The notes beneath the pieces were generated by a model. It had not been told where the DNA came from. It ran no database searches and saw only the letters and a program-made list of their open reading frames with translations. From the IMG/VR virus record IMGVR_UViG_3300048033_001096, positions 105,232-169,231 of that record: 64,000 nucleotides of DNA; one strand, written 5' to 3'. Within the stretch, counting starts at the first letter, position 1. The number at the start of each line of letters is the position of its first letter. This DNA is from a virus. This document shows, piece after piece, positions 24,106 through 49,120 of the stretch. Both the position numbers and the translations under genes were made by a program.

Positions 24106-27100
24106 ATGGCAGAGTTTAAACTAGGTAGAATTAGATTTGTTTGGCAGGGCGACTGGAGTGCTGATCGAACATATGTTGCAGACGATGTTGTAAGTTTTGG
24201 TGGTAAATCATACATTTGTATTAGAAACCATACATCAACAGCATCATTCCAAAATGATTTTGATAGTGAAATCAAGAAATGGGATATTGTTTCAGATGGT
24301 ACAGCTTGGCAAGGTGATTGGGAACCAGAATTTAGTTATGCACCAGGTGACGTTGTGCGTTATGGTGCAATTGTTTACATTGCAGAAACTGGGCATGTTT
24401 CTGCAACATTTGAATCACCTGACTTCTTAGGACTAGAAGCTGACTTAGACAAATGGACACCTTTTGCTACATCCTTTGATTGGAAAAGCGATTGGGAAAC
24501 CGCAACTAGATATAAAATTAACGACCTAGTACGTTATGGTGGATTTGTTTATCTGTGTAATACTGCTCATGTTTCTGCCGCAACAGTAGCACTTGGATTA
24601 GAAAACGATCAAGGTAAATGGACTTTATTCAGTGACGGATTAGTATACTTAGGAGAATGGGTAACTGAAAATCGTTATCGTTTAAACGATGTTGTTAAGT
24701 ACGGCGGCAACGTGTTTATCTGTACTACTCCGCACACATCAAATGACTTTATAAGTGATGAAGTAAACTGGGATGTATTTATTGAAGGCTTCCAGTTTGA
24801 AGATAGTTGGAATAATTCTACTGTTTATCAAATTGGTGATACTATTACATACGGTGGTTATGTATATGTTGCTAAGACTAACAATACAAACGCACAGCCA
24901 ACAGCAAGTCCAGATGATTGGGAAGTGTTTACAACTGGATTTGCGTTTCAAGGTGATTGGAGTTCGTTAGATAGTTACAAAGTAGGCGATGTTGTACGTT
25001 TGGGAGGCAATACTTATGTAGGTATCGCCGACAGCTTAGATCAAGAACCGCCAAATGATACTTATTGGAGTAGATTAAACTCTGGCATCAATTGGACTAG
25101 AAGCGTCGAATCTTTCTCACAAGTAGCTGGTACAAATGCAGCAGGGCAGTCAGGTTCAGGAGCACGATTTGACGTTGTTAAATCAAATACAGTTTACACT
25201 GTAAGTGTTTCAACAGGCTTTACTGGTACAGGTTATGCCGAAAATGATGTTATTACATTGTCAGGCGCAGATGTAGGCGGAACAACTCCGGCTAACGATA
25301 TTGTTGTAACTGTAACAGGAGTCACAGCCGGTGCAGTTGATTCAATTACTCATACTGGATTCTCGTCCTCTTGGATTGCTGGAAAAGATTACCATGTTGG
25401 TGATGTAGTTATATATGGAGCAAGTTCGTTTATTTGTGTAACTAAAAATACTTCAGAAACTGATAATAGACCAGACAATGACACTGAAGCAGTTTACTGG
25501 AACATTTTAACAATTGGATCCGAAGCACTATCGCTTGAAGTATCTGGCGACATGGTTTACTACGGTAATAATGGTCCAACTAGACTCCCAATCGGAGTTG
25601 ACGGACAAATTTTACGTGCAACTGACGGATTTCCTGAATGGGCAAACTATGGCCTAATTGACAACGTTGTTTATGTTGGCCCACTAGGTACTGATATTCC
25701 TGCACCTGAATCAGGACTAACAATTGACAAACCTTTTGCTAGTGTACGTTATGCACTTGATCAAATTCGTAACGGATATCTAAATCCTAAGACACGAGAT
25801 GTATTAAGAAATAATAAACAGTTTTTAATCAAAGAAGCATCTGAATGGGTAAAATATAATTATAATGTGCAGATTACTGCATCGGCAAGTGGCACACGTA
25901 CATTTACTTGTAACAGTACAGAAAATTTACGTGACGGGATTCCGTTTGTGTTTAGTGGAGACGTATTTGGAGGAGTTACTGCTGGAACAACATATTACAT
26001 CGATGCTATTATAAGCTCAACTGAATTTAGAATTAGTGACACTCAAGGTGGTATATCAATAATACTTACAGACGACACTGGTACTATGGAAGGTAATGCA
26101 TCTGTAAACTTTGACAATTTAGAAGCAGACTGTGCTAGAATTGTTGATGGTATAATTTATGATGTTTCAAGAGGCGGAACATTAAAGACTACTACTGCTA
26201 CAAACTTATATTATGTGAATACATATACATTTAGTGTTGAAAGCAATAATTATGTTTCACAAGAAGTTCAAGAACAAAAAACAATTAACCAAGAAGTATA
26301 TACAAAATTAAAAGATATTATTGACGATGTTGTAAATAATAGACACCCTGTTAATTATCAAGCTCTTAATGATATTAGTGTAGAAGACAGAGCACAGCAA
26401 GTACTTGATCTTGATCTAGTTGCTGAAGACCGCGGCAAGGAAAAAGCCGGCGACCTTCTTGACATTGTTGTTAATGGTATTGTTGCAGGATCTAACACAG
26501 CAATTGCTTTACCTGTACTTCCAAATACTACAGTGTTTATCAAGACAGGTACTTATAACGAAGTATTGCCAATGATTCTTCCAGAATACACTGCGGTAGT
26601 TGGAGACGAACTACGTACAAGTGTTGTACAACCTCGACCTGCTATTGCAAAACTAGCAAACGACAAAAATAAAACAACTAGTGCATTAAACAGAATTAAA
26701 GATCTTGCTCCTAAAGTAATACAAAATATTGAAGTAGAAAAAACAGCTGGAAACACTGCTATACAACAATATGTTAACGGTTATGGCGGCACAACTACTA
26801 CAACAAATAGATTAAACAATGGTATTGAAAAACTATCTGATATTTTAGAAAAAGGATTAACAGAAGTAGACCTATTACCTAACGTAGGACCTGTTCCTAC
26901 TAGTGGATCAAATAATGCAAGTGATAGTGGCTTTGCAAATGCTATTGCACAAATTGAAGCTAACGTTGACTTTATTGTTGCAGAGCAAACTGCTTGGATC
27001 CAAGCACAAGTAGACGGCGAGATTGCACCTTTTGCATCAGACTTTACGTTTGATACTGCAAACTGTGAAAGAGATACACGTTATATCTTAGATGCACTAC

Positions 27101-30100
27101 GTTACGATTTAACTTACGGTGGCAACTTAGAAACAACGGTTGCAGCAAGAAGTTATTTTGTAGACGGAAATCCAGTATACGGTACTGGCAAAAAAGAAGA
27201 AACACTTGCAACGTATGCTCATCTAAAATTGATTGTTAGCGATATAATTATTGAAGCTGCAATTACACCAACAGTCGGCAATGATGTAACACAAAATACA
27301 GACGGCGATGCAGGTTCAGCAGCAGCAGAAACATTTGCAGATACACGTATTCAAGAAATTTATGATACTATTGACACAGACGGTACACTACCTACACCTG
27401 TATTACCTGATACAAGTTGGGTTGACGGGGTTGTAAGTTCAGTTGTGTCAGACTTTGTTGCTGTAAAAGCAGACATTCAATCTGGAGCTATTGAATGGGT
27501 AAACGAAAATTATCCAACACTTGATTATAACCAAACTAAGTGCGAACGCGATGTAGGATACTTTGTAGATGCGTTAGAATATGATATACTATTTGGAAGT
27601 ACATTCCGTTCTACTAAAGCAGGCATGTCTTATCGTAGAGCAATTAGTTCTGCAGAAGTAGTAATTGATAGTCAATTAGAACCTACAATCGGAACTGTTG
27701 ATTATACTAGAGATAGAATTAAGTATTACACTACTAGGACTGCTAAAGTTGACGAAAGTACAGATTTAATTCTTGACATTTTAGAGAATGGTTCGGGATC
27801 TATTCCGTCTAGTTATACATACACAGATCCTGCAGGTTATGATACAGGATTTTTAAATGCTAGAAGATTAATTTCAGTAAATAAAGATTTTATTGTCTCT
27901 GAAATTGATGCATTCATGACTGACAACTACGGAGCATTTTGGGTGGCTTTAGATTCAGATTCAAAGGCACAGTGGTTAGAAGATTTAGACGAACAAGTTG
28001 AAGCTCTTAAGTATGATTTAACATACAGAGGTAACTTAGCAACTATTATACAATCAAGACTGTATTATGATTTACAAGGTGCGTTTGTGAGAGGCGCTAA
28101 TGAAAAAACAGAATCTTTAGCAGCACAGCAAAGACTAATTGATATTATTTCAGATATTGCATTAGGTACATTAATTACAAAGTCAACAAGCAATGCTGAT
28201 ACACAAGACAATACTGGAACAGCTGGGTCTGCAGGTGCAGCAGCATTTGCTCAAGATAGAGCTCAAGAAATTTATGAGTCTGCTGATAGTGGATTAGAAC
28301 CTGCATTAATTAGTCCATCAACAGCATGGACTGATGCTGCATTACAAGATCTTAAAACAGTACTTGATTCTAGATCAGAAACAATACAACTAGCTGCAAC
28401 AGATTATATTGATTTCTTATATCCTACACTAGATTATGATACATCACTATGCCAACGCGATGTTGGTTATATGATTGACGGTATTGGATACGATGTTATT
28501 TTTGATAGTAATTACTTAACAGTACAAAATGCTATAGCATATCGTAGAGGAACAGTTTCAACAGAACTAGTATTAAGTTCTCAACTACAAGAAACATTGT
28601 CTACAATTAGATTTGTAAACTCAACACTTACAGAAATTACTAAAGGTGTTGTTAGCGATACTGGTACAAGAGCTGCTGGCGATGCTGCATTTAAACTAGT
28701 TAAGGACATGAATACTATTATTCAAAATGGATTAGAAGCATTGCCGCCAATTAGTTATCCAACTGCTCCAGGCTACAATACTGCTGATTTTGCAGACACT
28801 GCATATGCAACAACATCAAATACAACCGGTGCAACAACAACTTATGGTGATGCAGCGGATCAGATTGTTGCTAACTACGAGTTTATACAAGATGAAGTTC
28901 GAAAGTGGTTAGAAGATTCAAATAACGGTTATGATGTTATTTGGGGATCTATTACTCCAGATGGGCAAGACCGTTGTATACGAGATGTAGGGTATATTTT
29001 AGATGCAGTGCGTTATGATTTAACATACGGTGGCAACACACAGTCATTAATTGCAGGCAGTGCATATTATTCAAATTTTGTATTAACAATTTCAGCAGCT
29101 GAGCTTCCGGCTACACTTGCAGCATATGCAAGACTAAAAGAAGTTGTTGAAGAAGTAATTGCTGAAACTACAGTAACTACAAGTCCAGGCGTGACTGAAG
29201 TACAAGACACAAGTGGAACACCTGGTAATACATCTTCAATTGAATTTGCTGGTGATAGAATTGACGATGTTCTTGACTACATTAATAATGCAAATCCAAA
29301 TGATACTATTGAAATTGCAAATAGTTGGCAACAAAAAGGAATTACAAAATCTTATAACAGAATTAAAAATCGTAAAGATGAAATTGTTGAAGATGTTGTA
29401 TTTTATGTTGAAAAATTCCATCAAGAATTGCAATACAATCAAGATACATGTCGTAGAGATGCAGCACTAATGGTTGATGCAATTGCACGTGATCTTTATA
29501 CTGGATCAAATTTTGCTACAACTAAAGCAGGTATGAGCTATTATAGATTAATAGCAAGTGCTTTAGAAGTTGTTAATAACGAACTGTATGCAACTGTAAA
29601 TAGTGTTGAGTTCTTAGCACAAAAAATAAGAAAAGTTGCAACTGTATCAGCTAATGCATCAATTGATTTGCTGATAACTGATATTACGTCATTTATTAAC
29701 GGTGGCAAAGTTCCAATTAATAAATGGGTTATAGCTGATGATTCAGACACAGCAGATGTTGCTGCGGCATCAATTATCTGGGAAAATAAAGCATATATTG
29801 TAGCAGAAGTTATTGCATTCTTAGATGATGCATACCCAGAGTTGACATATAATAAAGATAAATGTCGTAGAGATACAGGAATGCTTGTTGATGCAGTGCG
29901 TTATGATCTAACTTATGGAAGTAACTATGCAACACAAAAATTTGCAGAATTTTATTATCAGAAAAACTTTAACGAAGAATTTGAAATTGTTATTAGTACC
30001 GACGAAAAGGCAGCTACACTTGCAGCATATGATTATGCTAAACAAATCTTAACAGGATTAGCAGTAAACGATATTACTAGCCCTGGTGCAATACAAAATA

Positions 30101-33100
30101 AAGTAACAGTTAAAAGTAGAGATTCGTTACAGCTAGTTGGTGATGCAGGTTCTTTAGCAAGAGTAGAAGAATTATTAACTGATGTTTATAATTCTTTAGA
30201 AGATTTAGAAACTCAGCGCCCGTCATTAACTGTTATAGCAACTACGGATTCTACAAACGCACTTACTACAGATGCACCGCACGGATTAGTTGAAGGCAGT
30301 TTAATTAGCTTTACAGATACATTCCAAGATGTTGATACTTATTATGTTAAAGAGGTACTTAGCTCAACACAGCTAACAATTTCAACATACTTTGGCGGAC
30401 CAGTTGTAGAAGTATCAGATCAAGTAGACTTAATAATTACTGGATATTCGTTAAAAACAGCCAGTGTAGCTGAAACACCAGCTACACTTAAACAACAGTT
30501 TACAAACTTATCTGGTTCGATTGCAGCAATCAAAGGTGCAGTTACTGATTTTATTAATGATAAGTATCCTACACTTGATTACGATGTTGCAAAGTGTGAA
30601 AGAGACGTTGGATACATTGTTGAAGCAGTTGGAAGAGACATGATGTCTAATTCTAATTACTTAACTCAAATTGCATCTCAAGCATACTTTAGAGGAACTC
30701 AAGCTGATAAAGTTTTAGGCGATCAAAAAAATGCAACTGTACAATCTTATAGAGAGCTTAAAAATGTAATTGCAACATATATTAGTGGTGTTGACTTAGC
30801 TAAAAAGCGCACAAATGCATTAATGGATATTATTATTAATATGCTTGACAAAGGTAATGGCAATACTCCGGAAATTCACGGAACTGTTACATACTTTAAT
30901 GATAAAGAAACAATTAATGCTGTTGACATACTAAAAGCTAACAAAAACTTCTTAGCAAACGAAGCAACTGCTTGGATTACTGCATCATTTGGTGGTACAG
31001 TTACTGACATTGAAGGATCGCCGGGAACTATTAGATTTGCTAATGATCATAACTTAATTGTTGGTGACCCAATTGTATTTGATGATAATGCATTTGGTGA
31101 CTTAGTAGCAGGACAAACATACTATGTTGTAAATGTAACTGACACATCAGGAGTTGAAATTTCAGACGAGGTAGACGGCGAGGCACTGGTCCTTGACGTA
31201 GCTTCAGGGTCGAGCGTAGCATTATATGATTATGATCCTGCATTGTGTCGTAGAGACATGGAGCGTTATATTGAGGCTATTGTTTATGACTTACAATATC
31301 CAGGAAATCATAAATCTTGGAAAGCAGCAGAACTTTATTTAAATGCTGTTAATGGTTCAGAAAAATCAGATATGTATCATGTACGTAATGCAACTGGTGT
31401 TCGTAATCAAACTGTTAACGGGTTGCGCGGCAACTTAACAGAGCTTAATGATTTTGGTACAAGACGCCCAACAGCTGGTGCATATGTATCACTAGATCCT
31501 GGGTTTGGTCCAAATGATACTGAAGCCTGGGTAACTAATAAATCGTGTTATGTACAAAACGTATCAACATTTGGTGTAGGATGCGTAGGTTGTAAAATTG
31601 ACGGTGCTATCCATTCAGGCGGTAACAGATCAATTGTTAGTAACGACTTTACACAGATTCTAAGTGACGGTATTGGAGTATGGTGTAGTGGTAACAACTC
31701 ACTAACAGAGCTTGTTTCAGTATTCGCATATTATAACTATTCAGGTTACTTAGCAGACTTTGGCGGAAGAATTCGTGCAACAAATGGTAACAGTTCTTAC
31801 GGTACATACGGTGTTATTGCTGAAGGTACTGACACTGGTGAAGAACCAATTACAGCAACTATTGATAACCTTTCTCAAGATGCAATAATTTACGGTGTAC
31901 CAACTGACGGTGAAGAAGAAGTACTTGGTTTTGAATTTGCAAACGTGGGTACAGGATACACTAATGCCGAAGTTGCTATTAGCGGTACTGGATTTAATGC
32001 AGCCGTTAAAGTAGACGAGTTCCGTGACCGAGCTGTTGTTGAAACACGTATTATTGATCTAAACGACGGTAACGGAATTGGCGGCTCTGATTATATTACT
32101 GCACAAAACGTTGCACAGGGCGGCAGTGCTGTACACTTGCAACTCGCTGCAACTGATTTTGCTTTAAGTACTGCATATGTAGGAATGAATGCACAAATAA
32201 CAGCAGGTACAGGAGTTGGACAATATGCTAAAATATTAGCGTTTAACAACGGTACAAAAAATGCAACAGTTTATAAACCAAGCATTGATCCGTTTACAAT
32301 TACTGGAACAACTGCAAGTACTGATATTGTTACAATTACAGGAAATTACGAGCAACTTAGTGTAAACGACCCAGTTTATGTTGCTGAAGCAGTAGGTGGA
32401 CTTGATGCAGGTACAACTCCAAGTCGCGTTTACTATGTTATTACTAATAACTTAGACGGAACTATTCAGTTAAGTGACGAAGAAGGAGGAGCAGCAGTAA
32501 CGCTTACAACTACAGTAGGACAGTCTGTTAAACTGTATGTTGCAGGATGGGACAATGTTATTCCGGGCAAGTTGGCAGAAGTTGAATTAAACTTAACAAC
32601 AGGTTATACAATTGAACCTTCGGTTCATTATACAGAGCCAGGATTTACAACTAATTCTAGTACAACAGCAGATGCCATTGGTTTTGATAGAGTTGAATAT
32701 GCTCTTGGTAGATATGTAGCATTTCCAAATAATGGTACACAAACTAACTACTCACTAGACGGTAAGACTTGGATACAAGGTGGCGTACTACCAGCAACAG
32801 GCAATTGGAGTGCAAGTGCATACGGCGGAGGCGACGGCGCAATTGCAACTGCTATTGTTGGCGGACTAGGTGGTTCGGGTGCAGTACTTGAAGCAGAACT
32901 AGGTGAGATTAATAGTATTGGTCTTCCAGGACCAACACAGATTGCAAGAATAAATGTAATTAATGGCGGAACTGGATTTGTAACTGCACCAACTATTGTG
33001 TTTACTTCAGTCCAAGGCGGCGGCGGCGCAAGTGCTGTTGCAACTGTTAAAGACGGATCGATTCAAAGCATTATTATTACAAGTACAGGAGCTGGTTACG

Positions 33101-35352
33101 CAGCAGCACCAACAGTAACAGCAGAAACTGACAGAGTTACAGAAATTATTGTAAATGCTCGCGGTAGAGGATATTTAAGTGCTCCAACAGTGACACTTTC
33201 CGGCGGTGGCGCAAGCACACAAGCTCAAGTAACTGCTATTACAGAAAATCAAGGCGTAACAATTATTAGCATTGATGAAGATGAAGATAATAATCCTTTA
33301 AGAGGCAGCGGCTACACTAGTGCTCCAACAGTAACTATTACAGATACTGATGCAAAATGGGTAGCAATAGCACCGGGTTCTATTAACAATGCATATTTGT
33401 TGCAGTCAGATGCAGCTAATGCAGTTTGGACAGTTGGCAATCCTTTACCAAACTCAGGAATAGCAGATATTGCATATGGTAATGGTACGTGGACTGTAGT
33501 TGGCGGTGCAGGAGGCACAGGAAGTGCAGGAACGTCAACTGACGGTATTACTTGGGTGTCAAGAACTAATACAACACCAGCAGCTGGTGATTTTGTAAGT
33601 GTTGCATACGGAAGTACAAGGTTTGTTGCAATTAACGACAACGGATTTACATCGTATAGTTCCAATGGTATTACTTGGACTGCAGGCGGATCACTACCTG
33701 GTACAGAAACAGATTGGAAAAAAGTTGTTTACGGTAACGGTCGATTTGTTGCAATAAGCAGCAGCGGTGACCAAGCTATAAGTTATGACTTTGGTGAAAA
33801 CTGGTTTGCAGGATCAACATCTCTTGCTAATATTTCTAGTAATCCAAATGACTGGGAAACAGTAGAATACGGACAAGGTTTATTCCTTGCAAGTGGATCA
33901 TCTGGAGGAATTTTTGCAACTTCACAAGATGGTGTAATTTGGACAGATAGAACAATTGGAGGAACAGCAGGTTATGCAGGAATAGCATTTGGTAACACAT
34001 CAAATACTCCATTATGGGTAGCTGTAACAGGAAGTGGATCTAATGACGCAAGATGGATTGAAACTGGTGCTAGACCGAATGGTAGAACTTATGTTGACGA
34101 TGATAATATTGTACAGTTTACGTTAAGAGAACCAGGCTCAGGATTCCCCGAAGGTAACATTGTAAGTACAACAGCACCAAATACTATTGAAGTAGACACA
34201 ACATCAAACTTGTTTATTGGTCAACCAATTACATTTGACGGTAGTGATATTGATGCAGTTGGATTAGATTCAGAAGTTGTGTATTATATTTCCGACATAC
34301 CAACAAGTACTACTATTGAAGTATCGTTAATTAAAGGAAGTGATCCGTTTGACATTACATCGGTTAACGCAAATAATATTGGAACAATAATATTCCAAGC
34401 AGGCCCTTCTGTAACAATTGGAGATCCAAACGCAACTGTAGAAGTAGCAGTAAATCCAAGAATTAGAAGTGGAACATTAGCACAACCGTCATTTACTAAT
34501 AGAGGTGCAGGATATACTACTGCAACTGCTGAATTAGGCGGCGACGGTAATGCTGATTTGTATCAGCCAAGTACATTTATATCATTACGTGGATTATTTG
34601 AATTACCAGAGCCAGGCTCAAACGTTGTATTTGATAATATTCTAAACAGATGGTATAAATTGGTTACAATTAGTAATGTTATTGGACAACCGGGTGAATA
34701 CACAGCAACGTTCCAAATTAGTCCAGGACTTAATACACTTAATGCTCCTAAGGACGGAACTAAAATTACAACTACTAACAAATATTCGCAAGTACGCCTA
34801 ACAGGACATGACTTCTTGTATATTGGTACAGGCAACCAAGCTAAAACAAACTATCCGTTTGTTGATATTACAACAGCAAGTATTGATAGACAACAGTTAA
34901 GCAGTGGCGGCGGACGAGTATTCTTTACAAGTACTGACCAAGATGGTAACTTTAACGTTGGTGGCTTGTTTGGAGTCCAACAGTCCACAGGTACTGCGAC
35001 ATTGGATGCTGATGCATTTAACTTAGCAGGATTGCAGTCATTGCAACTTGGTGGTATTGCTGTTGGTATTGGATCGGCTATTATTACACAGTTTAGTACA
35101 GACCCGTTCTTTACTGAAAATAGTGATAGTATTGTTCCAACACAACGTGCTATTAAGAGTTATATTACAGCACAGATTGGTGGTGGTCAGTCAAGTCTAA
35201 ACGTTAACACATTAACAGCAGGTGTTGTGTTTATTGCAAATGACGAAATTACTACAACAAGCGGCGGACAGCTAAATATTAAAGCGAAAATGAATTTTAC
35301 AGGTGGTATTGACGGAGCTCCAGTAGCACTTGGATACTTCTTATCTAGATAA
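24106..35352 (+). CDS. Giant virion protein with ten CxRD helical repeats (3748 aa)
   Basis: This is an uninterrupted frame of 11.2 kb. Residues 1-470 carry seven CBM5/12-like units, as in the 2624-aa paralogue. From about 660 to 2430 there are ten copies of a helical repeat with core C-x-RD-x5-DA-x-x-YDL-x-x-GGN (e.g. CERDTRYILDALRYDLTYGG), separated by about 130-200 residues; no known domain was recognised. A beta-helix core follows (RNATGVRNQTVNGLRG, GAYVSLDPGFGPNDTEAW), 80% or so like the 2624-aa protein by eye. Then come BNR-like blades (STDGITWVS, YGNGRFVAIS) around 2860-3310. The end repeats TSTDQDGNFNVGGLFGV and VPTQRAIKSYI. It is probably a long tail fibre or baseplate appendage. Confidence 0.75.
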   Translation: MAEFKLGRIRFVWQGDWSADRTYVADDVVSFGGKSYICIRNHTSTASFQNDFDSEIKKWDIVSDGTAWQGDWEPEFSYAPGDVVRYGAIVYIAETGHVSATFESPDFLGLEADLDKWTPFATSFDWKSDWETATRYKINDLVRYGGFVYLCNTAHVSAATVALGLENDQGKWTLFSDGLVYLGEWVTENRYRLNDVVKYGGNVFICTTPHTSNDFISDEVNWDVFIEGFQFEDSWNNSTVYQIGDTITYGGYVYVAKTNNTNAQPTASPDDWEVFTTGFAFQGDWSSLDSYKVGDVVRLGGNTYVGIADSLDQEPPNDTYWSRLNSGINWTRSVESFSQVAGTNAAGQSGSGARFDVVKSNTVYTVSVSTGFTGTGYAENDVITLSGADVGGTTPANDIVVTVTGVTAGAVDSITHTGFSSSWIAGKDYHVGDVVIYGASSFICVTKNTSETDNRPDNDTEAVYWNILTIGSEALSLEVSGDMVYYGNNGPTRLPIGVDGQILRATDGFPEWANYGLIDNVVYVGPLGTDIPAPESGLTIDKPFASVRYALDQIRNGYLNPKTRDVLRNNKQFLIKEASEWVKYNYNVQITASASGTRTFTCNSTENLRDGIPFVFSGDVFGGVTAGTTYYIDAIISSTEFRISDTQGGISIILTDDTGTMEGNASVNFDNLEADCARIVDGIIYDVSRGGTLKTTTATNLYYVNTYTFSVESNNYVSQEVQEQKTINQEVYTKLKDIIDDVVNNRHPVNYQALNDISVEDRAQQVLDLDLVAEDRGKEKAGDLLDIVVNGIVAGSNTAIALPVLPNTTVFIKTGTYNEVLPMILPEYTAVVGDELRTSVVQPRPAIAKLANDKNKTTSALNRIKDLAPKVIQNIEVEKTAGNTAIQQYVNGYGGTTTTTNRLNNGIEKLSDILEKGLTEVDLLPNVGPVPTSGSNNASDSGFANAIAQIEANVDFIVAEQTAWIQAQVDGEIAPFASDFTFDTANCERDTRYILDALRYDLTYGGNLETTVAARSYFVDGNPVYGTGKKEETLATYAHLKLIVSDIIIEAAITPTVGNDVTQNTDGDAGSAAAETFADTRIQEIYDTIDTDGTLPTPVLPDTSWVDGVVSSVVSDFVAVKADIQSGAIEWVNENYPTLDYNQTKCERDVGYFVDALEYDILFGSTFRSTKAGMSYRRAISSAEVVIDSQLEPTIGTVDYTRDRIKYYTTRTAKVDESTDLILDILENGSGSIPSSYTYTDPAGYDTGFLNARRLISVNKDFIVSEIDAFMTDNYGAFWVALDSDSKAQWLEDLDEQVEALKYDLTYRGNLATIIQSRLYYDLQGAFVRGANEKTESLAAQQRLIDIISDIALGTLITKSTSNADTQDNTGTAGSAGAAAFAQDRAQEIYESADSGLEPALISPSTAWTDAALQDLKTVLDSRSETIQLAATDYIDFLYPTLDYDTSLCQRDVGYMIDGIGYDVIFDSNYLTVQNAIAYRRGTVSTELVLSSQLQETLSTIRFVNSTLTEITKGVVSDTGTRAAGDAAFKLVKDMNTIIQNGLEALPPISYPTAPGYNTADFADTAYATTSNTTGATTTYGDAADQIVANYEFIQDEVRKWLEDSNNGYDVIWGSITPDGQDRCIRDVGYILDAVRYDLTYGGNTQSLIAGSAYYSNFVLTISAAELPATLAAYARLKEVVEEVIAETTVTTSPGVTEVQDTSGTPGNTSSIEFAGDRIDDVLDYINNANPNDTIEIANSWQQKGITKSYNRIKNRKDEIVEDVVFYVEKFHQELQYNQDTCRRDAALMVDAIARDLYTGSNFATTKAGMSYYRLIASALEVVNNELYATVNSVEFLAQKIRKVATVSANASIDLLITDITSFINGGKVPINKWVIADDSDTADVAAASIIWENKAYIVAEVIAFLDDAYPELTYNKDKCRRDTGMLVDAVRYDLTYGSNYATQKFAEFYYQKNFNEEFEIVISTDEKAATLAAYDYAKQILTGLAVNDITSPGAIQNKVTVKSRDSLQLVGDAGSLARVEELLTDVYNSLEDLETQRPSLTVIATTDSTNALTTDAPHGLVEGSLISFTDTFQDVDTYYVKEVLSSTQLTISTYFGGPVVEVSDQVDLIITGYSLKTASVAETPATLKQQFTNLSGSIAAIKGAVTDFINDKYPTLDYDVAKCERDVGYIVEAVGRDMMSNSNYLTQIASQAYFRGTQADKVLGDQKNATVQSYRELKNVIATYISGVDLAKKRTNALMDIIINMLDKGNGNTPEIHGTVTYFNDKETINAVDILKANKNFLANEATAWITASFGGTVTDIEGSPGTIRFANDHNLIVGDPIVFDDNAFGDLVAGQTYYVVNVTDTSGVEISDEVDGEALVLDVASGSSVALYDYDPALCRRDMERYIEAIVYDLQYPGNHKSWKAAELYLNAVNGSEKSDMYHVRNATGVRNQTVNGLRGNLTELNDFGTRRPTAGAYVSLDPGFGPNDTEAWVTNKSCYVQNVSTFGVGCVGCKIDGAIHSGGNRSIVSNDFTQILSDGIGVWCSGNNSLTELVSVFAYYNYSGYLADFGGRIRATNGNSSYGTYGVIAEGTDTGEEPITATIDNLSQDAIIYGVPTDGEEEVLGFEFANVGTGYTNAEVAISGTGFNAAVKVDEFRDRAVVETRIIDLNDGNGIGGSDYITAQNVAQGGSAVHLQLAATDFALSTAYVGMNAQITAGTGVGQYAKILAFNNGTKNATVYKPSIDPFTITGTTASTDIVTITGNYEQLSVNDPVYVAEAVGGLDAGTTPSRVYYVITNNLDGTIQLSDEEGGAAVTLTTTVGQSVKLYVAGWDNVIPGKLAEVELNLTTGYTIEPSVHYTEPGFTTNSSTTADAIGFDRVEYALGRYVAFPNNGTQTNYSLDGKTWIQGGVLPATGNWSASAYGGGDGAIATAIVGGLGGSGAVLEAELGEINSIGLPGPTQIARINVINGGTGFVTAPTIVFTSVQGGGGASAVATVKDGSIQSIIITSTGAGYAAAPTVTAETDRVTEIIVNARGRGYLSAPTVTLSGGGASTQAQVTAITENQGVTIISIDEDEDNNPLRGSGYTSAPTVTITDTDAKWVAIAPGSINNAYLLQSDAANAVWTVGNPLPNSGIADIAYGNGTWTVVGGAGGTGSAGTSTDGITWVSRTNTTPAAGDFVSVAYGSTRFVAINDNGFTSYSSNGITWTAGGSLPGTETDWKKVVYGNGRFVAISSSGDQAISYDFGENWFAGSTSLANISSNPNDWETVEYGQGLFLASGSSGGIFATSQDGVIWTDRTIGGTAGYAGIAFGNTSNTPLWVAVTGSGSNDARWIETGARPNGRTYVDDDNIVQFTLREPGSGFPEGNIVSTTAPNTIEVDTTSNLFIGQPITFDGSDIDAVGLDSEVVYYISDIPTSTTIEVSLIKGSDPFDITSVNANNIGTIIFQAGPSVTIGDPNATVEVAVNPRIRSGTLAQPSFTNRGAGYTTATAELGGDGNADLYQPSTFISLRGLFELPEPGSNVVFDNILNRWYKLVTISNVIGQPGEYTATFQISPGLNTLNAPKDGTKITTTNKYSQVRLTGHDFLYIGTGNQAKTNYPFVDITTASIDRQQLSSGGGRVFFTSTDQDGNFNVGGLFGVQQSTGTATLDADAFNLAGLQSLQLGGIAVGIGSAIITQFSTDPFFTENSDSIVPTQRAIKSYITAQIGGGQSSLNVNTLTAGVVFIANDEITTTSGGQLNIKAKMNFTGGIDGAPVALGYFLSR

Positions 35353-35369: not shown

Positions 35370-35690
35370 ATGGCAACAGGAAGACTAGGAGTACAAGACT
35401 TAACGGCAGATACAGATACCACTGTATATACTGTTCCAGTCGGTACATATGCAGTAGCAAACGTTTCTATTACTAATAGAAATGAAGCAGCGATTTCGAT
35501 GAAATTGGCAATGGCAACAACAGGCATACCTACAGACGAAGAATGGGTCGAATGGAATACAATTATTATTCCAAACGGTGTTTTTGAACGTACAGGGTTA
35601 GTTATGCAAGGCGGGCTAAATATAGTAGTAAATACTAATGCAAGCAATGTTGGAGTAACAGTCTATGGCATCGAAACATCAACAACGTAA
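35370..35690 (+). CDS. Small beta-sandwich virion protein, paralogue 3
   Basis: This 106-residue protein starts 17 bases after the 3748-aa gene with CGGAG upstream. Predicted strands and the turn EWNTIIIPNGVFERTG followed by GGLNIVVNTNASNVGVTVYG match the layout of the proteins at 4772 and 15453. Each of the three lies near a large fibre gene, which suggests dedicated accessory subunits. A decorating or folding-aid role is inferred, and no motif gives a specific function. Confidence 0.5.
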   Translation: MATGRLGVQDLTADTDTTVYTVPVGTYAVANVSITNRNEAAISMKLAMATTGIPTDEEWVEWNTIIIPNGVFERTGLVMQGGLNIVVNTNASNVGVTVYGIETSTT

Positions 35691-35708: not shown

Positions 35709-37916
35709 ATGGCACGTTATAATACAGCACCACAAACACTGGAAGTAGATGGCGAAACTGAATTCACCTATGCGTTTACAGGTGGAATTATTAGTTTAAC
35801 TGGAACACCAGGGTATACTGTTACAATGGTAAGTCCGGTGTTCTTCCCAGGCAGTAGACAAACATTTTATAATGCTACTGCTGACATGATTACTATATCT
35901 ACATCAGCAGGACAAATTACAGGTAACGGTGTAACACTTGGATCGTCAGTAGATATTCCAACAAACTCTACATACCAATTAACTTCAGATGGTGCAAACT
36001 ACGTACTGACAAGTGCGTTAGCAGGTACTACAGTATTTGAATTACCAGTTACATTTAATGATGTACTAAATGCAGATGGCCCAGTAGAACTTAACCCAGC
36101 AGACCAAGATGTACAATTAAAACCTACAGGCACAGGTACAGTTGACATTAGTCCACAATCCTCCGTTTCAATTCAGCCAGGTGGACAAGCAACTATTCGA
36201 CCTTCAGGTAACTTAACATTAAGTTCGTCTACAGGAACACTTTCGATAGGTGATGCAGGAAAAGAAACAGCATTTCCGGGTAATATTTCTTTTACAACAA
36301 ATGGTCAAACAGTTACACTATCACCTACAGGGGCAACTAGCGCAGTTACCATTGATCCAGAAGGACCAGTTGTAATTGGCTCAGGTGATACTGTATCTAT
36401 TAGTTCGGACAGTGCAGGAACTATTGATGGATTAAATATTGGCGCAACTACTCCGGGTACAGGTAGATTTACTACATTATCAGCAAGTGGAAATACTACT
36501 TTTAGTTCTTCAACAGCAAGCTCAGGAACAGGTAGCGGAGCTGTAGTTGTTACAGGTGGAGTTGGCATTGGTGGTGCATTATATGCAGGGTCAATTGACG
36601 GCACACCAATTGGCGGAACTACAAAAGCAGCAGGCGGATTTACAACATTAACTGCAAGTGATGCAGTAACGTTTACAAAAAATACAGCATCAACTAATAC
36701 TACAAGCGGTACACTGGTCATAACAGGCGGCTTAGGTGTAAGCGGAGCACTTTATTCAGGTAGCTTTCAAGGTCCAATTGGTAACGTAAGCAGTAACACC
36801 GGCACATTTACAAGCGTTAATGCAAGTGGTGTTGTTGATATTACAGGAACAGGCGATGCAACAAATGCAACAGGCGACACAGGTCAATTGCGTTGTGAAG
36901 GCGGTGCAAGTATTGCTAAACGTGTTTACTCAGGAGGCGGCTTTGTAGGTGCAATTGGTAACATATCAAGAAGCACAGGTGCATTTACTACACTAACTGC
37001 AAACGACACAGTTACATTTAGTCCGTCAAATAAAAATGTTACACTATCGCCAACAGGAACAGGTACAGTTACAATTTCACCTGCAGGGTCTTTAACACTA
37101 AATCCAGGCAGTGGTACAATTAACAATATGTCAATTGGTGCTAGTAGTGCAAGCTCAGGTAGTTTTACATCTTTAAGTGCAAGTGGTAATTTTAGTTACA
37201 ACGGTAATGGTACACTAGGTAATGCTACAAGTGATACACATACCATGAATGGCATATTAAATATTAATAGAGGCCTTATTAACTTATACGGTACTGCTAA
37301 TCCAAGTATTACATTTAACGGATCAAGTGACGCAGGCGTTGATGCAGAAATTAGAGCAACTCCTGAAGGATTAGACTTTAGAGAGCCAGAAGATTCAAAT
37401 AAAATTTGGTTCCAAATTAAAGATGACACGGGCTGTAACATAAATGTTGGGTCATTCCAAATGGCAGGCTCAGATGTTATTGACTCATCTAAGAATATGA
37501 CAAGTATACGTTGTATTGGTGTTAACACAGCTGATCCAAACGTTGCAGGACGTATTACTGCTACTGAAAACATTATTTCAAACACGTCAGATAAAAGACT
37601 TAAGACAAATGTTAAAAACATCGATAGTGCATTGGATAAAGTTATGTCACTTAATGGTATAACATATAACTGGAACGAAACAGCAATTGCAGCCGGCTTT
37701 AACGCTGAAGTTGAAGAAGTAGGTTTAATTGCTCAAGAAGTACAAGCAATTCTTCCACAAGTAATACATGATGCACCTTTTGATAGGGGCGAAGAAGGTG
37801 AAAGTATTTCAGGCGAAAATTATATAACGCTGCAATACGAAAGAATTGTACCTTTATTAGTTGAAGCAATTAAAGAATTAAAAGAACAAATAAATACATT
37901 AAAGGGAGACAAATAA
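35709..37916 (+). CDS. Tail fibre with C-terminal S74 auto-cleaving chaperone (735 aa)
   Basis: The body is a Gly/Thr/Ser-rich beta shaft with repeats such as KPTGTGTVDISPQSSVSI and SGTGSGAVVVTGGVGIGGALY. The last 110 residues are a Peptidase_S74 intramolecular chaperone: SDKRLKTNVKNID, then LIAQEVQAILPQVI, then YERIVPLLVEAIKELKEQI. By family knowledge this domain trimerises the fibre, then cuts itself off before the Ser of SDxRxK, here Ser627. AGGGGA precedes the ATG. The next gene starts immediately after the stop and may encode the tip, echoing the T-even fibre/adhesin pair gp37-gp38. Confidence 0.85.
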   Translation: MARYNTAPQTLEVDGETEFTYAFTGGIISLTGTPGYTVTMVSPVFFPGSRQTFYNATADMITISTSAGQITGNGVTLGSSVDIPTNSTYQLTSDGANYVLTSALAGTTVFELPVTFNDVLNADGPVELNPADQDVQLKPTGTGTVDISPQSSVSIQPGGQATIRPSGNLTLSSSTGTLSIGDAGKETAFPGNISFTTNGQTVTLSPTGATSAVTIDPEGPVVIGSGDTVSISSDSAGTIDGLNIGATTPGTGRFTTLSASGNTTFSSSTASSGTGSGAVVVTGGVGIGGALYAGSIDGTPIGGTTKAAGGFTTLTASDAVTFTKNTASTNTTSGTLVITGGLGVSGALYSGSFQGPIGNVSSNTGTFTSVNASGVVDITGTGDATNATGDTGQLRCEGGASIAKRVYSGGGFVGAIGNISRSTGAFTTLTANDTVTFSPSNKNVTLSPTGTGTVTISPAGSLTLNPGSGTINNMSIGASSASSGSFTSLSASGNFSYNGNGTLGNATSDTHTMNGILNINRGLINLYGTANPSITFNGSSDAGVDAEIRATPEGLDFREPEDSNKIWFQIKDDTGCNINVGSFQMAGSDVIDSSKNMTSIRCIGVNTADPNVAGRITATENIISNTSDKRLKTNVKNIDSALDKVMSLNGITYNWNETAIAAGFNAEVEEVGLIAQEVQAILPQVIHDAPFDRGEEGESISGENYITLQYERIVPLLVEAIKELKEQINTLKGDK

Positions 37917-38780
37917 ATGGCTACTTGTTTATATGTAGATGGTATTAGGTTCCCAAACGGAACTTGCCAAAGAACACAAGGCGTCACATCGGGCGGAATG
38001 TTTCAGTGCTATAACACATGTATGGTGTGTTGCGGACCACACAGATGTAGATCACACTGCGGACGTTGTGGTACTTGGACTGCACCAACATGTGCTTCAG
38101 AAATAAAATTTGAAGTATGGAGCGGCGGCGGCAGTGGCGCTGGATTTTGTTGTAGAAACTGTTTTTGCGACATTGCTAGTTGTGGTGCGTTAAGCGGTTA
38201 TTATGGCACAAAAACTATTAGACGAATTGACGGACAGTTTGTACCGGGATGTACTTATAACTTCTGTGTAGGTGCAGGCGGTAACGGGACAACAAACAAC
38301 GGATGTGGTTGTTTTACTGCATGTTGTGATGCGCCAAGGGGTTGCACATCATGGGTTAGTGGTTCAGGATTATGTTGTACGTGTATGACAGGTGGCCGAG
38401 GTGGATATAATATCTATTGTGTATGTTACTGTATTAACCAAGGTAACAGAACAGACGGCATGTGTAACAACGGACTGTGTATTGGTTGTAAATGGGATTT
38501 CGTTGACTTAGGTAACGAACCTTATTTTAATAGATATCGATCAAATGTTAACTGTGCATCACGTTCGTCTGGTATTTCTGAATCTTGGGGTATAAAAAAC
38601 GGACATATGCATTCGATGCAAACAGGTACTAAGTACTGTGGTTGTACAAATTGCTGTAGAGGATTTAGACAAATTGCTAAAGCAGGATCTAACTTAATTA
38701 AAGCGGTATGCGGCCAAGACTTAGGAAACTGTCGTGGAACACCTGGTAACCCTGGATTAGTAAGAATTACTTGGAGATAA
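37917..38780 (+). CDS. Cysteine- and glycine-rich candidate fibre-tip adhesin (287 aa)
   Basis: By my count 38 of 287 residues are cysteine, often as CC, CxC or CxxC pairs (e.g. CVCYC, CCTC, CCGPHRC). The glycine-rich pattern W-TAPTCASEIKFEVWSGGG, then VGAGGNG and GGRGGYN, follows the layout of glycine-rich tip domains of phage fibres (WTVPAGV then VxGGGGGG). It ends in GTPGNPGLVRITWR, also typical of these domains. AAGGGAG precedes the ATG, which abuts the S74-fibre stop. I infer a receptor-binding tip stabilised by disulphides or metal. There is no signal peptide, so oxidation would have to occur after lysis or with bound metal in the cytoplasm. Confidence 0.6.
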   Translation: MATCLYVDGIRFPNGTCQRTQGVTSGGMFQCYNTCMVCCGPHRCRSHCGRCGTWTAPTCASEIKFEVWSGGGSGAGFCCRNCFCDIASCGALSGYYGTKTIRRIDGQFVPGCTYNFCVGAGGNGTTNNGCGCFTACCDAPRGCTSWVSGSGLCCTCMTGGRGGYNIYCVCYCINQGNRTDGMCNNGLCIGCKWDFVDLGNEPYFNRYRSNVNCASRSSGISESWGIKNGHMHSMQTGTKYCGCTNCCRGFRQIAKAGSNLIKAVCGQDLGNCRGTPGNPGLVRITWR

Positions 38781-39599
38781 ATGATAATGAATGATAATAT
38801 TGATAACGAAGAACTAGAAAGTGAAGTAGTTGATTATCGCACTCTCGAATTAACCGACGAACATGGTACTGAATGGGTTGAGGTTAATTACACATACGAC
38901 TGTCCTATTAGTAATTACTTAGACGGTGAAGAAACTGAAACAATTGACATGGTATATAAAGGTCCTAGATATTTGTATATGTATGTTAATAAAGACGATG
39001 AAGAGTTAGATAGAAATGGAGAGTTTGAAACGGTATTGAGAGAATTTGAAGTACGTCTCGAAACTAGTGATTTTACAAATCTTCCTGGAGAAGTAGAAAT
39101 TATTAAGTTGGATGCTACAAAGGATCCGTTAGGAGCAGAAGTATTATCTGATTATCATAATAACTATATGGACATGGAAGAATGGGAAGAAACACCTAGC
39201 GAAAAAACAATCCCAGAAACTCCAATTGACGGTTATGGCTATTTTTCATACGAATATCCAATTCATCCAGACGAGTTATATGACGATAAAAAGACACGCT
39301 GGAACTTCGAAACAGGCGAACTCGATTTATACAAAAACACTAATAGTGATGTATTAGGTGAAACACGAACTTGGAAAAGTATTAAGGTAGAGAGAAATGA
39401 AAGACTAGCCGAAGCTGATGTTCCGGCAATGACTTTTGCTGTTGTAGACCCTGATAGAGCAGCAGGTATAGAAACATATAAACAGCTTCTCAGAGATTTC
39501 CCACAAAAAATGGCAGAAGCAGGAATTGATATGATTTTTGTTGATTCATGCTGGCCTGAATGTGCAGAATTAGATGACGATTACGGTCTAGACGATTAA
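38781..39599 (+). CDS. Probable tail fibre assembly chaperone (272 aa)
   Basis: The protein is acidic. Its C-terminal 80 residues match the layout of phage tail-assembly chaperones: TWKSIKVERNERLAEADV, then GIETYKQLLRDFPQKM, then a terminal WPE, compared with the family pattern RxxRxxLLxxxDW, YRQxLRDxP and WP. The usual Trp after the Asp is replaced (ADVPAM). The N-terminal 180 residues are unrecognised. The start abuts the stop of the adhesin gene; GGAG at 38773-38776 favours the ATG at 38781, though 38787 is possible. It is the last gene before a strong terminator, so fibre, tip and chaperone form one unit. Confidence 0.55.
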   Translation: MIMNDNIDNEELESEVVDYRTLELTDEHGTEWVEVNYTYDCPISNYLDGEETETIDMVYKGPRYLYMYVNKDDEELDRNGEFETVLREFEVRLETSDFTNLPGEVEIIKLDATKDPLGAEVLSDYHNNYMDMEEWEETPSEKTIPETPIDGYGYFSYEYPIHPDELYDDKKTRWNFETGELDLYKNTNSDVLGETRTWKSIKVERNERLAEADVPAMTFAVVDPDRAAGIETYKQLLRDFPQKMAEAGIDMIFVDSCWPECAELDDDYGLDD

Positions 39600-39718: not shown

Positions 39719-40705
39719 ATGACAAGATCAACAGCTTTCTTTATCAACGGCGGCGCAGGCCGTGTTATAACATCAATACCAGCATTAGAACTTTACGAAA
39801 AAGAAAATCCTAACGATGATTTTATTATTGTGTGCGAGGGCGGAACTGATTTTTATAAAGGTCATCCAACTTTGCATAACCGTGCATACGATACGTGGCA
39901 TAAAGGATTATTTGAGCAATATATTAAAGACAGAAATTGTGTAAGTCCTGAGCCTTATCGTATTTGGGAATATTATAATCAAAAGTGCAGTTTAGCACAA
40001 GCATTTGATATTGAAATTAACAAACAGGGAATTAGAGAAGTACATATACCGTCTATATATCTTAACAAAGCAGAAGAATATAATGGAAAAACAGTTGTTG
40101 ATGAAGTTAAGTCTGTTACTGGATTTAATAAGGTAGTTGTAATTCAACCATTTGGTAGAGGCGTTGAAGAAACACTCATTGATCAAACATCTAGAAGTTT
40201 TAGAGCTGACGACATGTTAGATATTGCTAATCAATTAAAACAAGATTACGGTGTAATTATTATGAGTGAATTGCCATTACCTTTATATAACGAAGATGGT
40301 GATCCTACTCCTTTAGCACAGCCGCAAATACCGGATATAAGAATATGGGCCGGAGTAATTAAAGAAGCAGATCATTTCTTAGGTTGCGATAGTGTAGGGC
40401 AACATATAGCAAAGTCTCTTGGAACTACTGCTACAGTAATAACAGGTAGTACTTACCCTATTAATACATCATATGTTAACGACAAAGATGTTGACATCTT
40501 TGACGTTGGAGACGGACGACGAGTATATAGTCCAATACGTGTATCTACAGAAGAAGAGCCCGACAGGTTGAATGATAAAGCTATGAATATGAGTAAAGAA
40601 CATGTTAATGATATTGTTAAATCAATTAAAAATCGTGTAGGGAAATCAATAAAGACTACACCAAAACCACCTAACGAACAGATGAATAATGGAGGAAATC
40701 TATGA
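39719..40705 (+). CDS. GT9-like (heptosyltransferase family) glycosyltransferase
   Basis: The 328-residue product has a GT-B layout. A glycine-rich loop GGAGRVITSIPALE sits near residue 11, as in ADP-heptose:LPS heptosyltransferases. VVVIQPFGRG begins the C-terminal Rossmann half, and GCDSVGQHIAKSLGT (222-236) matches the nucleotide-sugar binding GxDSGxxHxAxxxG signature, with Val replacing the usual Gly after Ser. Such enzymes move heptose from ADP-heptose to a glycan. The facing operon makes ADP-heptose, which makes heptose the likely donor, though acceptor and donor are inferred. It overlaps the carbamoyltransferase by ATGA (40702-40705). Confidence 0.65.
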   Translation: MTRSTAFFINGGAGRVITSIPALELYEKENPNDDFIIVCEGGTDFYKGHPTLHNRAYDTWHKGLFEQYIKDRNCVSPEPYRIWEYYNQKCSLAQAFDIEINKQGIREVHIPSIYLNKAEEYNGKTVVDEVKSVTGFNKVVVIQPFGRGVEETLIDQTSRSFRADDMLDIANQLKQDYGVIIMSELPLPLYNEDGDPTPLAQPQIPDIRIWAGVIKEADHFLGCDSVGQHIAKSLGTTATVITGSTYPINTSYVNDKDVDIFDVGDGRRVYSPIRVSTEEEPDRLNDKAMNMSKEHVNDIVKSIKNRVGKSIKTTPKPPNEQMNNGGNL

Positions 40706-42501
40706 GCATGTGGATAGCAGGCCTTTCTAGAGGCCACAACGCCGGAGTATGTTTACTTAAAGACGGTGAAATTGTTTTTTCTATTGAAGAAGAACGATTA
40801 ACTCGAAAAAAATACGACGGTGGACCTCTAGCGTCTATTCTAAAAATATTAGAATATACAGACAAGCTAGATTATATGGTTATTTCACACACACAAACTA
40901 TCGAACAAACAGCAGGTAAGATTGACTACACAGCTGAAGATTATATGACTGCACTTGCTCGTAAAGTTGGATTAATTGATTATCATCCTCCATGGGAACC
41001 ACATCCGCAAGTAATTGACGTATCTAAACTTCATCATAAAATGCATGCTTCGTTAGCTTTTTATAGATCAGGTTTTGAAAAGGCTATTGCAGTTATTGTC
41101 GACGGTGCAGGTACAGAGTTTGCTATTGAAGCTGATGACCAAATAAAAAGTATGTGGGAAACAGAAACTATTTACGAATGCTCATATCCTGATAATATTA
41201 AAACACTTTTTAAGACATTAGGATGTAGAGACTATATGCCATTAATGCCTATGGATGCACCGGACCAAGATATATTTGGAAATCCAACAGGTGATAAATT
41301 TCCGTGTGCATTGCATGATAGAGCTGGAATTGTAAAGTGCTATGAAGGCGTTACTGAGTATTGTGGATGGGATGCAATTGAAGCAGGTAAAACTATGGGG
41401 TTATTTCCATACGGCAACTCTAACGATGATATTCCGCCTATCTTTGATTATCAATCAGATTTTGGTGCTCCGTTAAGTAATCGTAATTTATTTGTACCAA
41501 GATACCCAAATGGATCTATTGTAAACGAACACTATTATAGTTACTTAATTGACAAAGGCGAAGAAGACGCTACACAAGAACAAAATCGACGAGATTTAGC
41601 ATATGCTGTACAAGTTGAATCTCAAGCAGCAGTTACAAAATTAATAAAAGATGCTGTTGAAAATACTGGCATTAAAAATATTGTTGTCAGTGGAGGATAT
41701 GGATTAAATTGTGTTGCAAACTATCATTATTTAAAAGAATTAGACGATGATATAAATCTTTATGTAGAACCAGTGTCAAATGACGGTGGTACAGCTATGG
41801 GTGCAGCATTATGGTTATACAGAAGTATTACTAAGGACAGTAAAATTGAAAAACAATCAGATAATGTGTATTTAGGTCCTAAATACAATATTGTCGACAG
41901 TGATATAGAACAATTAGCAACAAAGTATAATGCTACGGTTACAGATGCAACCCATCAAGATGTAATTGATTTAATTACAAGCAAAAATATTGTTACATTG
42001 TTTCAAGGAAGATCAGAAAACGGTCCTCGTGCATTAGGTAACAGAAGTATTATGTACGATCCAACTGACCCTCATGGTAAAGATTTTGTTAATATGGTTA
42101 AGCATCGTGAATATTTTCGACCATTTGCTGGTAGTATTTTAGAAGAAGATGTACACGAATGGTTTGACTTACGTGGCATGGAAAGTTCGCCTACAATGAT
42201 GTATGCTGTTAACTGTCTACCCGGCGTTGAAGAAAAGATTCCTGCTATTATTCACGTAGACGGAACCTGTCGTATTCAAACTGTAAACAGAGAACAAAAT
42301 CCACATTACTATGATATTATTAAAACTTTTAAAGAAAAAACTGGATGTCCTATTATCTTTAATACTAGTTTTAATTTAGGAGGAGACCCATTAGTCGAAA
42401 CACTAGAAGATGCATTTATAACACTTTCAAAAAGTGACATTAACTATTTATATTTGCCAGAAAATGGTAAACTAATAAGGATAACAGCAAATGAGTCTTA
42501 A
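40702..42501 (+). CDS. Carbamoyltransferase of the NodU/CmcH family
   Basis: The 599-residue length is normal for this family, which transfers a carbamoyl group from carbamoyl phosphate through a carbamoyl-adenylate to a sugar or antibiotic hydroxyl. The N-terminal Kae1/TobZ-like domain shows GLSRGHNAGVCLL (7-19), EEERLTRKKYDGG, LHHKMHASLAFY (metal-binding histidines) and VSGGYGLNCVAN. The YrdC-like C-terminal domain shows QGRSENGPRALGNRSIM near residue 434 and IIFNTSFNLGGDPLV. AGGAGGAAA-like ribosome site (TGGAGGAAA) precedes the ATG. Coupling to a glycosyltransferase suggests it carbamoylates the sugar that enzyme adds. All key motifs look intact. Confidence 0.9.
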   Translation: MSMWIAGLSRGHNAGVCLLKDGEIVFSIEEERLTRKKYDGGPLASILKILEYTDKLDYMVISHTQTIEQTAGKIDYTAEDYMTALARKVGLIDYHPPWEPHPQVIDVSKLHHKMHASLAFYRSGFEKAIAVIVDGAGTEFAIEADDQIKSMWETETIYECSYPDNIKTLFKTLGCRDYMPLMPMDAPDQDIFGNPTGDKFPCALHDRAGIVKCYEGVTEYCGWDAIEAGKTMGLFPYGNSNDDIPPIFDYQSDFGAPLSNRNLFVPRYPNGSIVNEHYYSYLIDKGEEDATQEQNRRDLAYAVQVESQAAVTKLIKDAVENTGIKNIVVSGGYGLNCVANYHYLKELDDDINLYVEPVSNDGGTAMGAALWLYRSITKDSKIEKQSDNVYLGPKYNIVDSDIEQLATKYNATVTDATHQDVIDLITSKNIVTLFQGRSENGPRALGNRSIMYDPTDPHGKDFVNMVKHREYFRPFAGSILEEDVHEWFDLRGMESSPTMMYAVNCLPGVEEKIPAIIHVDGTCRIQTVNREQNPHYYDIIKTFKEKTGCPIIFNTSFNLGGDPLVETLEDAFITLSKSDINYLYLPENGKLIRITANES

Positions 42502-43117
42502 TCTAATATTTGGAACTCCGGTATATAAAACTAAAATGCCAAATCATGAAGAAATAGTAGAGGGGTTTATGCCCTTTATTGAAAATAAAGAAAATTTTGA
42601 CATATCAACATTTTGGGACTGTGAATGTAGAACAACTATTCAAAATGATGATAAGAATGAAAAATTTCCGTGGCAATTATTTTTTGAAAATGTATATAAA
42701 GAAGTTGATAACTATTCTGATGCAATTGGATTGTCAGAATGGGGGAAAGATAACATGTATGCCCAAGCCTGGATTAATAGATACGACGAAGGACAATATC
42801 AAGAAGTTCATTCACACGGTGGCGGCAACTTATTAATTAGTTGTGCATATATGTTAAAACTGCCCGAAGAAAGTGCAAAATTTTCTTTTTATAAATCAAA
42901 TTATGAAGAATTTCCAGTACATCTTGCACAAGCATTTACTGGTACTCCGCCATATTTTGGAAGAAGAGTTACACCACCGTTAGAAGAAGGAGATATTATA
43001 TTTTTTCCTTCAAGTCTAGATCATTATGTATCAACACATAAATCATCACAACTAAGATCAACAATTAGTGCAAATTTTGGTGTTGCTATCGAGAAGCTAA
43101 CCATTCAGCAAAGCTAG
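42491..43117 (+). CDS. 2-oxoglutarate/Fe(II) oxygenase-like protein
   Basis: This 208-residue protein matches the TIGR02466-type putative 2OG-Fe(II) oxygenases common in marine phages. AWINRYDEGQYQEVHSHGG provides His107 and His109, then a beta core (LISCAYMLKLPEESAKFSFY), then EEGDIIFFPSSLDHYV with His178 and SQLRSTISANF with Arg189. The iron ligands are therefore H-x-H and H rather than the classical HxD and H, as usual in this subgroup. The substrate is unknown; hydroxylation of a sugar, lipid or protein are all possible. It overlaps the carbamoyltransferase by 11 bases and, tail to tail, the minus-strand gmhB by 32 bases. Confidence 0.75.
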   Translation: MSLNLIFGTPVYKTKMPNHEEIVEGFMPFIENKENFDISTFWDCECRTTIQNDDKNEKFPWQLFFENVYKEVDNYSDAIGLSEWGKDNMYAQAWINRYDEGQYQEVHSHGGGNLLISCAYMLKLPEESAKFSFYKSNYEEFPVHLAQAFTGTPPYFGRRVTPPLEEGDIIFFPSSLDHYVSTHKSSQLRSTISANFGVAIEKLTIQQS

Positions 43118-49115: not shown

Positions 49116-49120
49116 ATACA

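Follow-up and report, generated by a model that had tools for sequence, protein, structure and literature searches.

Why would a phage make a protein with 38 cysteines inside a reducing cytoplasm? The question is raised by one gene of a marine phage. It lies in the window, which is the 64-kb stretch of DNA analysed here and the last part of a 169-kb IMG/VR record. The host range of a phage is decided by its fibre tips, about which little is known for marine cyanophages. A first-pass annotation, made from the letters of the DNA alone, had read this gene (37917..38780, + strand) as a candidate glycine-rich fibre tip, perhaps locked by disulphides or metal. The ORF starts with ATG and encodes 287 aa, of which 48 are glycine; the cysteine count of 38/287, or 13.2%, agrees with the 38 and about 13% given in that annotation. 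The mean cysteine content of the window's forward ORFs of at least 100 aa is 0.75%, and the next forward ORF reaches 3.2%. The ORF was confirmed as genuine, being neither a chance nor a spurious frame. Its placement directly 3′ of an S74 fibre gene and 5′ of a chaperone-like gene also held up. The upstream gene (35709..37916, +) ends one base before the ORF starts at 37917, and encodes a 735-aa fibre protein with a C-terminal intramolecular chaperone domain (Peptidase_S74, Pfam E = 2.4e-17). The downstream gene (38781..39599, +) encodes a predicted fibre-tip assembly chaperone of 272 aa with a Phage_tail_APC match (PF16778, E = 1.3e-7, above the cut-off).

In a profile search, residues 32–286 of the window protein matched positions 30–284 of the 287 positions of phrog_4205 (E = 1.8e-16), a family annotated as "unknown function", whose genes in cultured phages are labelled "hypothetical protein". 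This places the window protein, which is divergent and encoded by a single copy, in a family that exists already but is uncharacterised. Profile searches found three genes of this type in each of S-SSM7, Sf-FS3, S-CAM1 and S-CAM3 and two in P-SSM2, with 24–36 cysteines per protein. The cyanophage proteins (S-SSM7 SSSM7_114–116, S-CAM3 gp156–158, P-SSM2 PSSM2_304/306) resemble the window protein in their full-length profile match, their cysteine- and glycine-rich architecture and their gene neighbourhood. However, they are only 21–32% identical to the window type, which is encoded by a single copy and not a trio, has its own cysteine-bearing N-terminus, and belongs to a virus with a jumbo-phage-type capsid. 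When an S-SSM7 protein was used as the query against 50,697 phage records, 21 records were matched: 19 are Synechococcus or Prochlorococcus phages and the other two are marine single-cell virus fragments with no host given. A tblastn search of the same 50,697 records with the window protein and its relative L010 gave no match; this is a false negative, because both the PHROG profile and the cyanophage query reach the family. Further scans of IMG/VR added about a hundred loci of the cysteine-rich family, carried by metagenomic viruses, and the 246 distinct cysteine-rich proteins collected have a median cysteine content of about 10%. Our literature search found no paper joining the terms cysteine-rich, tail fiber and cyanophage.

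The first-pass annotation had named conservation of the cysteines among homologues as a check, and absence of such conservation as evidence against it. Two IMG/VR scans gave twelve loci with full-length relatives, 62–86% identical to the window protein. In an alignment of nine window-type sequences, 37 of the 38 cysteines are invariant, compared with 112 of the 249 other residues (Fisher P = 5.6e-11), making cysteine the most conserved residue. Between the window gene and each relative, 8–14 cysteine codons differ silently (TGT/TGC) with the cysteine kept. This combination of invariant residues and silent codon changes indicates that the cysteines are under strong purifying selection. The broader alignment of 115 sequences, most of them 21–32% identical to the window protein, includes 108 relatives outside the window's clade; about 16 cysteine positions are common to the clade and these relatives, and the family-wide cysteines 52, 140, 181 and 237 are missing from the clade.

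An AlphaFold2 model of the window protein was built from the 115-sequence alignment. It is nearly all-beta with glycine/cysteine loops and is of moderate confidence (pLDDT 68, pTM 0.72). The predicted TNF-like/glycine-rich domain (residues 31–287; 38007..38777, +) consists of beta strands linked by Gly/Cys-rich loops and ends in the strand PGLVRITW. Alignment and model together define a first Gly-Cys loop at residues 69–86 (SGGGSGAGFCCRNCFCDI; 38121..38174, +), in which C78 and C84 are kept in practically all 115 family members, and a second at residues 118–144 (38268..38348, +), in which C132, C137 and C143 are kept throughout the same alignment. The preceding segment, residues 1–30 (37917..38006, +), is modelled with low confidence, carries two cysteines specific to the window's clade (C4 and C17), and is presumed to serve for attachment.

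Structure prediction was the other computational check proposed. The top Foldseek matches in the PDB are to the fibre of cyanophage Pam3 (7ypx, E = 3.4e-5; 7yfw, E = 4.5e-5; probability 1.00), followed by tail-tip chains of mycobacteriophage Bxb1 and then, more weakly, by the glycine-rich domains of ALK/LTK. TM-scores to the Pam3 fibre are modest (0.36–0.47), so that the match is at the level of the fold and the superposition is loose. Predicted viral structures of S-CAM3, P-SSM2 and syn9 gp38 were matched as well. A sequence search of the PDB gave no match. With the Gly_rich_2 profile (PF21722) the window protein scores 23.1 bits, below the gathering cut-off of 24.3, and 62 of the 115 family members match at E ≤ 0.01.

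The Pam3 fibre protein gp24 forms a trimeric adhesin of the TNF-like plus glycine-rich kind; it resembles S16 gp38 and requires the neighbouring chaperone gp25 (PMC9608196). The window locus is like gp24/gp25 (7ypx; PMC9608196) in its predicted TNF-like and glycine-rich domain, in its G-rich loops, and in the adjacent chaperone with C-terminal helices. The model of the window's chaperone-like protein (pLDDT 85) has a beta-rich N-terminal part followed by a pair of long helices at the C-terminus, a predicted layout resembling gp25, although a Foldseek search with this model returned no significant PDB match, gp25 included. Among the relatives, 45 of 55 have a neighbouring gene with the Phage_tail_APC domain. 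The two proteins also differ: gp24 has an N-terminal helical docking domain, whereas residues 1–30 of the window protein are non-helical in the low-confidence part of the AlphaFold2 model, and the main text of the Pam3 fibre paper (PMC9608196) does not mention cysteine, of which the window protein has 38. The tip protein gp38 of T4-type long tail fibres (S16, PP01) is likewise a glycine-rich distal adhesin made with the fibre, but the PDB sequence search gave no match and S16 gp38 lies outside the top Foldseek hits. The Pam3 fold match, the chaperone neighbour and the family, including the Gly_rich_2 matches, together make the reading of the window protein as a fibre-tip adhesin of the TNF-like plus glycine-rich type well supported, in line with the first-pass reading of a glycine-rich tip beside a chaperone.

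Could the protein instead remain inside the cell, as a cysteine-rich factor that acts in host take-over, as a metal buffer or as a further chaperone, and whose gene lies in the fibre operon by chance? It is unseen in virion proteomes, as such a protein would be, but the three published virion proteomes examined (S-SM1, syn9 and S-PM2) are all of phages without the phrog_4205 family. The fold matches to solved phage fibre and tail-tip proteins, the adjoining chaperone gene and the poly-glycine tips that stand at the equivalent place in syn9 all speak for a tip, and we consider a non-virion role very unlikely.

The comparison with syn9 also bears on whether the fold needs its cysteines. This phage lacks phrog_4205, and the genes after its tail-fibre gene encode gp36 (35% Gly, 8 Cys; L149:4856-5806), a poly-glycine tip at the equivalent place, and gp38 (22% Gly, 2 Cys). 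Relatives of syn9 gp38 have 0–5 cysteines (median 1) and about 25% glycine, versus a median of 28 cysteines and 17% glycine in the cysteine-rich family. The gp38-type and cysteine-rich profiles nevertheless align over a shared WxxPxGV...GGGG motif (hhalign, probability 84.5, over 43 columns only). Since syn9-type tips are cysteine-poor and carry the same motif, the sequence comparison indicates that the fold does not need cysteine and that cysteine density is a variant. The window protein is a cysteine-dense form of a phage adhesin type that is already known. The cysteine-rich family seems to be a derived form, cysteine having assumed some of glycine's structural function.

Most carriers have the cysteine-rich gene as tandem paralogues (L037–L140; for example the trio at L103:3001-5405). 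Exactly three copies are present in 86 loci for which both flanks are visible. A single copy, and no tandem trio, is seen in the window and in its close relatives, and P-SSM2 has two, so the trio is a common but not a required trait of phrog_4205. In a tree made with the cysteines masked, the first, second and third copies fall largely in separate clades. This positional orthology indicates that the trio is old and that each copy has been retained. Because TNF-like folds trimerise, a natural reading is that the cyanophage trio possibly forms a heterotrimeric fibre tip.

What, then, would the cysteines do in such a tip? When a protein destined for the outside of the cell keeps so many conserved cysteines, the most probable purpose is disulphide formation, and a disulphide or metal lock is plausible. 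For the window protein we infer presence in the virion, a trimeric state, receptor binding and an oxidised state, and on balance we favour a distal adhesin, folded as a trimer by its chaperone, whose loops would be stapled by disulphides after lysis. In ordinary members of this adhesin kind, the long stem loops of the tip would be held by poly-glycine packing; in the cysteine-dense variant much of the glycine would be gone, and cysteines would occupy loops and strand ends instead. The protein would be made reduced, held by the chaperone in the reducing cytoplasm and then mounted on the fibre. Lysis into oxygenated water would allow the cysteines to pair as disulphides inside each chain and perhaps across chains. 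The tip would then be rigid and resist proteases, and its variable distal face would bind the host surface. The three orthologous copies of most cyanophage relatives would probably give either a 1:1:1 heterotrimer or three tips, and the single copy of the window virus a homotrimer. If the cysteines do oxidise after lysis, this would be a natural, covalently stapled and stable adhesin whose synthesis takes place under reducing conditions. Such a case would bear on how phages stay stable in sunlit, oxygenated water and on how robust binding proteins may be designed.

In nature, a network of tail disulphides is known from Agrobacterium phage Milano (PMC10811340), which serves as a precedent. Like the window case, it has cysteine-enriched tail proteins, with disulphides formed in the virion (PMC10811340), but its structural proteins contain 2.1% cysteine and are bonded in the sheath and baseplate, compared with 13% in a fibre tip here, and the proteins are unrelated. 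In the AlphaFold2 model of the window protein, cysteines are not enriched in loops over strands (P = 0.44). Neither glutaredoxin nor thioredoxin turned up in the 169-kb record, though that record may be fragmentary.

If every cysteine were bonded within its own chain, cysteines should be gained and lost in pairs. Within the window's clade the variable cysteines tend to change jointly: C53 goes with C113, and C211 with both C270 and C57. On the tree of 246 proteins, paired gains or losses are few (109+150 together four times) and changes are mostly single, on 87 of the 156 branches with changes, a weak pairing signal. The parity of cysteine counts is near random, both per chain (138 even, 108 odd) and per trio (20 even, 22 odd). 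The single changes and random parity argue against strict intrachain pairing of every cysteine, and a fully paired intrachain set is not supported by these counts. The unpaired pattern could reflect bonding between chains, a number of free thiols, or metal.

Free thiols are the basis of one alternative, a reactive-thiol adhesin whose unpaired cysteines form mixed disulphides with the host, or whose disulphides act as a redox trigger reduced at the host, as has been proposed for Milano. The odd cysteine numbers in many chains and trios imply that some cysteines are unpaired, and clade-specific cysteines do occur in variable regions. Most of the cysteines, however, occupy invariant scaffold positions and not variable tip positions, and we regard this alternative as improbable.

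Iron holds some phage fibres in shape, and the same tip could in principle have its loops held by cysteine-bound metal (Zn, Fe, Cu or Fe-S). The window protein has five CxxC pairs (35/38, 48/51, 79/82, 188/191 and 243/246), and unpaired gain or loss of single cysteines would fit flexible metal ligation equally well. These CxxC pairs are mostly unconserved, however, positions 35, 38, 79, 82, 191 and 246 being cysteine in few relatives, and no zinc-ribbon or metallothionein Pfam match was found. An HxH iron motif, of the T4 gp37 type of iron-binding fibre, was considered and rejected: there is a single HxH (230/232), and its second histidine is lost in relatives. That CxxC and HxH are for the most part not kept across the family speaks against metal motifs of the known types. 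Potential iron-binding domains have been described for one phage fibre (PMC11705849). Overall, a metal-held tip seems unlikely, though less so than a reactive-thiol one, and disulphide stapling remains our preferred reading.

The tip gene is inherited as part of a module. Upstream in the window lies a very long tail-fibre-like protein of 3748 aa (24106..35352, +). It contains RDxGYxxDAxxYDLTYGGN-like repeat units, and a search with 600 aa of it gave weak matches, all to fibres of Synechococcus phages. Between it and the S74 fibre gene, a 106-aa protein (35370..35690, +) with a weak match to a tail-fibre family (phrog_11338) resembles S-CAM3 BOW87_gp160, which has the equivalent position. Downstream of the chaperone-like gene are a phrog_8954 protein (39719..40705, +; E = 2.1e-132), which also follows the tip module in cyanophages, and a Nol-like carbamoyltransferase (40702..42501, +), a conserved neighbour in an order shared with S-SSM7, Sf-FS3, S-CAM1, S-CAM3 and P-SSM2. 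The usual cyanophage order is long tail-fibre gene, cysteine-rich gene or genes, chaperone-like gene, phrog_8954, Nol-like carbamoyltransferase and sugar genes, with a 2OG oxygenase between the chaperone-like gene and phrog_8954 in some carriers. The window follows this general order, but with one cysteine-rich gene and an inserted S74 fibre. After the module the window has the carbamoyltransferase together with a 2OG-Fe(II) oxygenase (40702-43117), and cyanophages with the same arrangement of these two also carry heptose/LPS-type sugar genes. P-SSM2 departs from the usual order in having a cysteine-free gene between its two cysteine-rich genes (L141:4261-7127); the intervening gene resembles the chaperone-like gene, which suggests duplication or rearrangement of the tip genes. 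The chaperone-like gene is co-inherited with the cysteine-rich gene and is homologous between the window's group and the cyanophage group (E down to 2e-13). As this homology is free of cysteine bias, it gives independent support for common descent of the module.

The virus itself is of another kind. Its major capsid protein is 67–72% identical to those of the jumbo phages Phosso (469 kb), Vibrio 2.275.O (349 kb) and PA5oct (287 kb), and another structural protein likewise matches the jumbo-phage group (window 1324-2499 and 48012-49121, with Phosso, PA5oct and Atu_ph07 as the jumbo-phage types). A placement of the virus in Kyanoviridae was dropped, as the capsid matches jumbo phages. Contigs with cysteine-rich genes include some with jumbo-type capsids, 95% (L002) and 87% (L103) identical to that of the window, and others with cyanophage-type capsids, 36–38% identical. 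The tip module is thus present in two phage lineages and, judging from these sequences, was probably transferred from one to the other. No convincing cysteine-rich copies were seen in the four jumbo phages tested, the only hits being short ones in Phosso, within a 3182-aa frame.

Every cultured carrier found is a phage of picocyanobacteria, which makes a cyanobacterial host a reasonable guess, and no more, for the window virus; psbA was not found in the 169-kb record, which is possibly incomplete. The shared module suggests a host clue for this uncultivated jumbo-lineage virus, and provides a concrete candidate adhesin family and chaperone for cultured phages such as S-SSM7, S-CAM1, S-CAM3 and P-SSM2. 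A more tentative, and by our estimate doubtful, generalisation is that these proteins form an adhesin class in which a poly-glycine stem gave way to a cysteine lattice, soft and chaperone-held in the cell and set by oxidation only after release into oxygen-rich water. In cyanophages such an adhesin would be obligately heterotrimeric, built from three ancient paralogues, and in the jumbo lineage it would be a single chain; its module would have been passed between unrelated phage lineages for use on what are probably cyanobacteria. Cysteine-rich trios also occur on contigs (L214, L215 and L216) assigned to MAGs of Actinomycetota, Rhodobacteraceae and Flavobacteriales, and these are probably mis-binned phage contigs.
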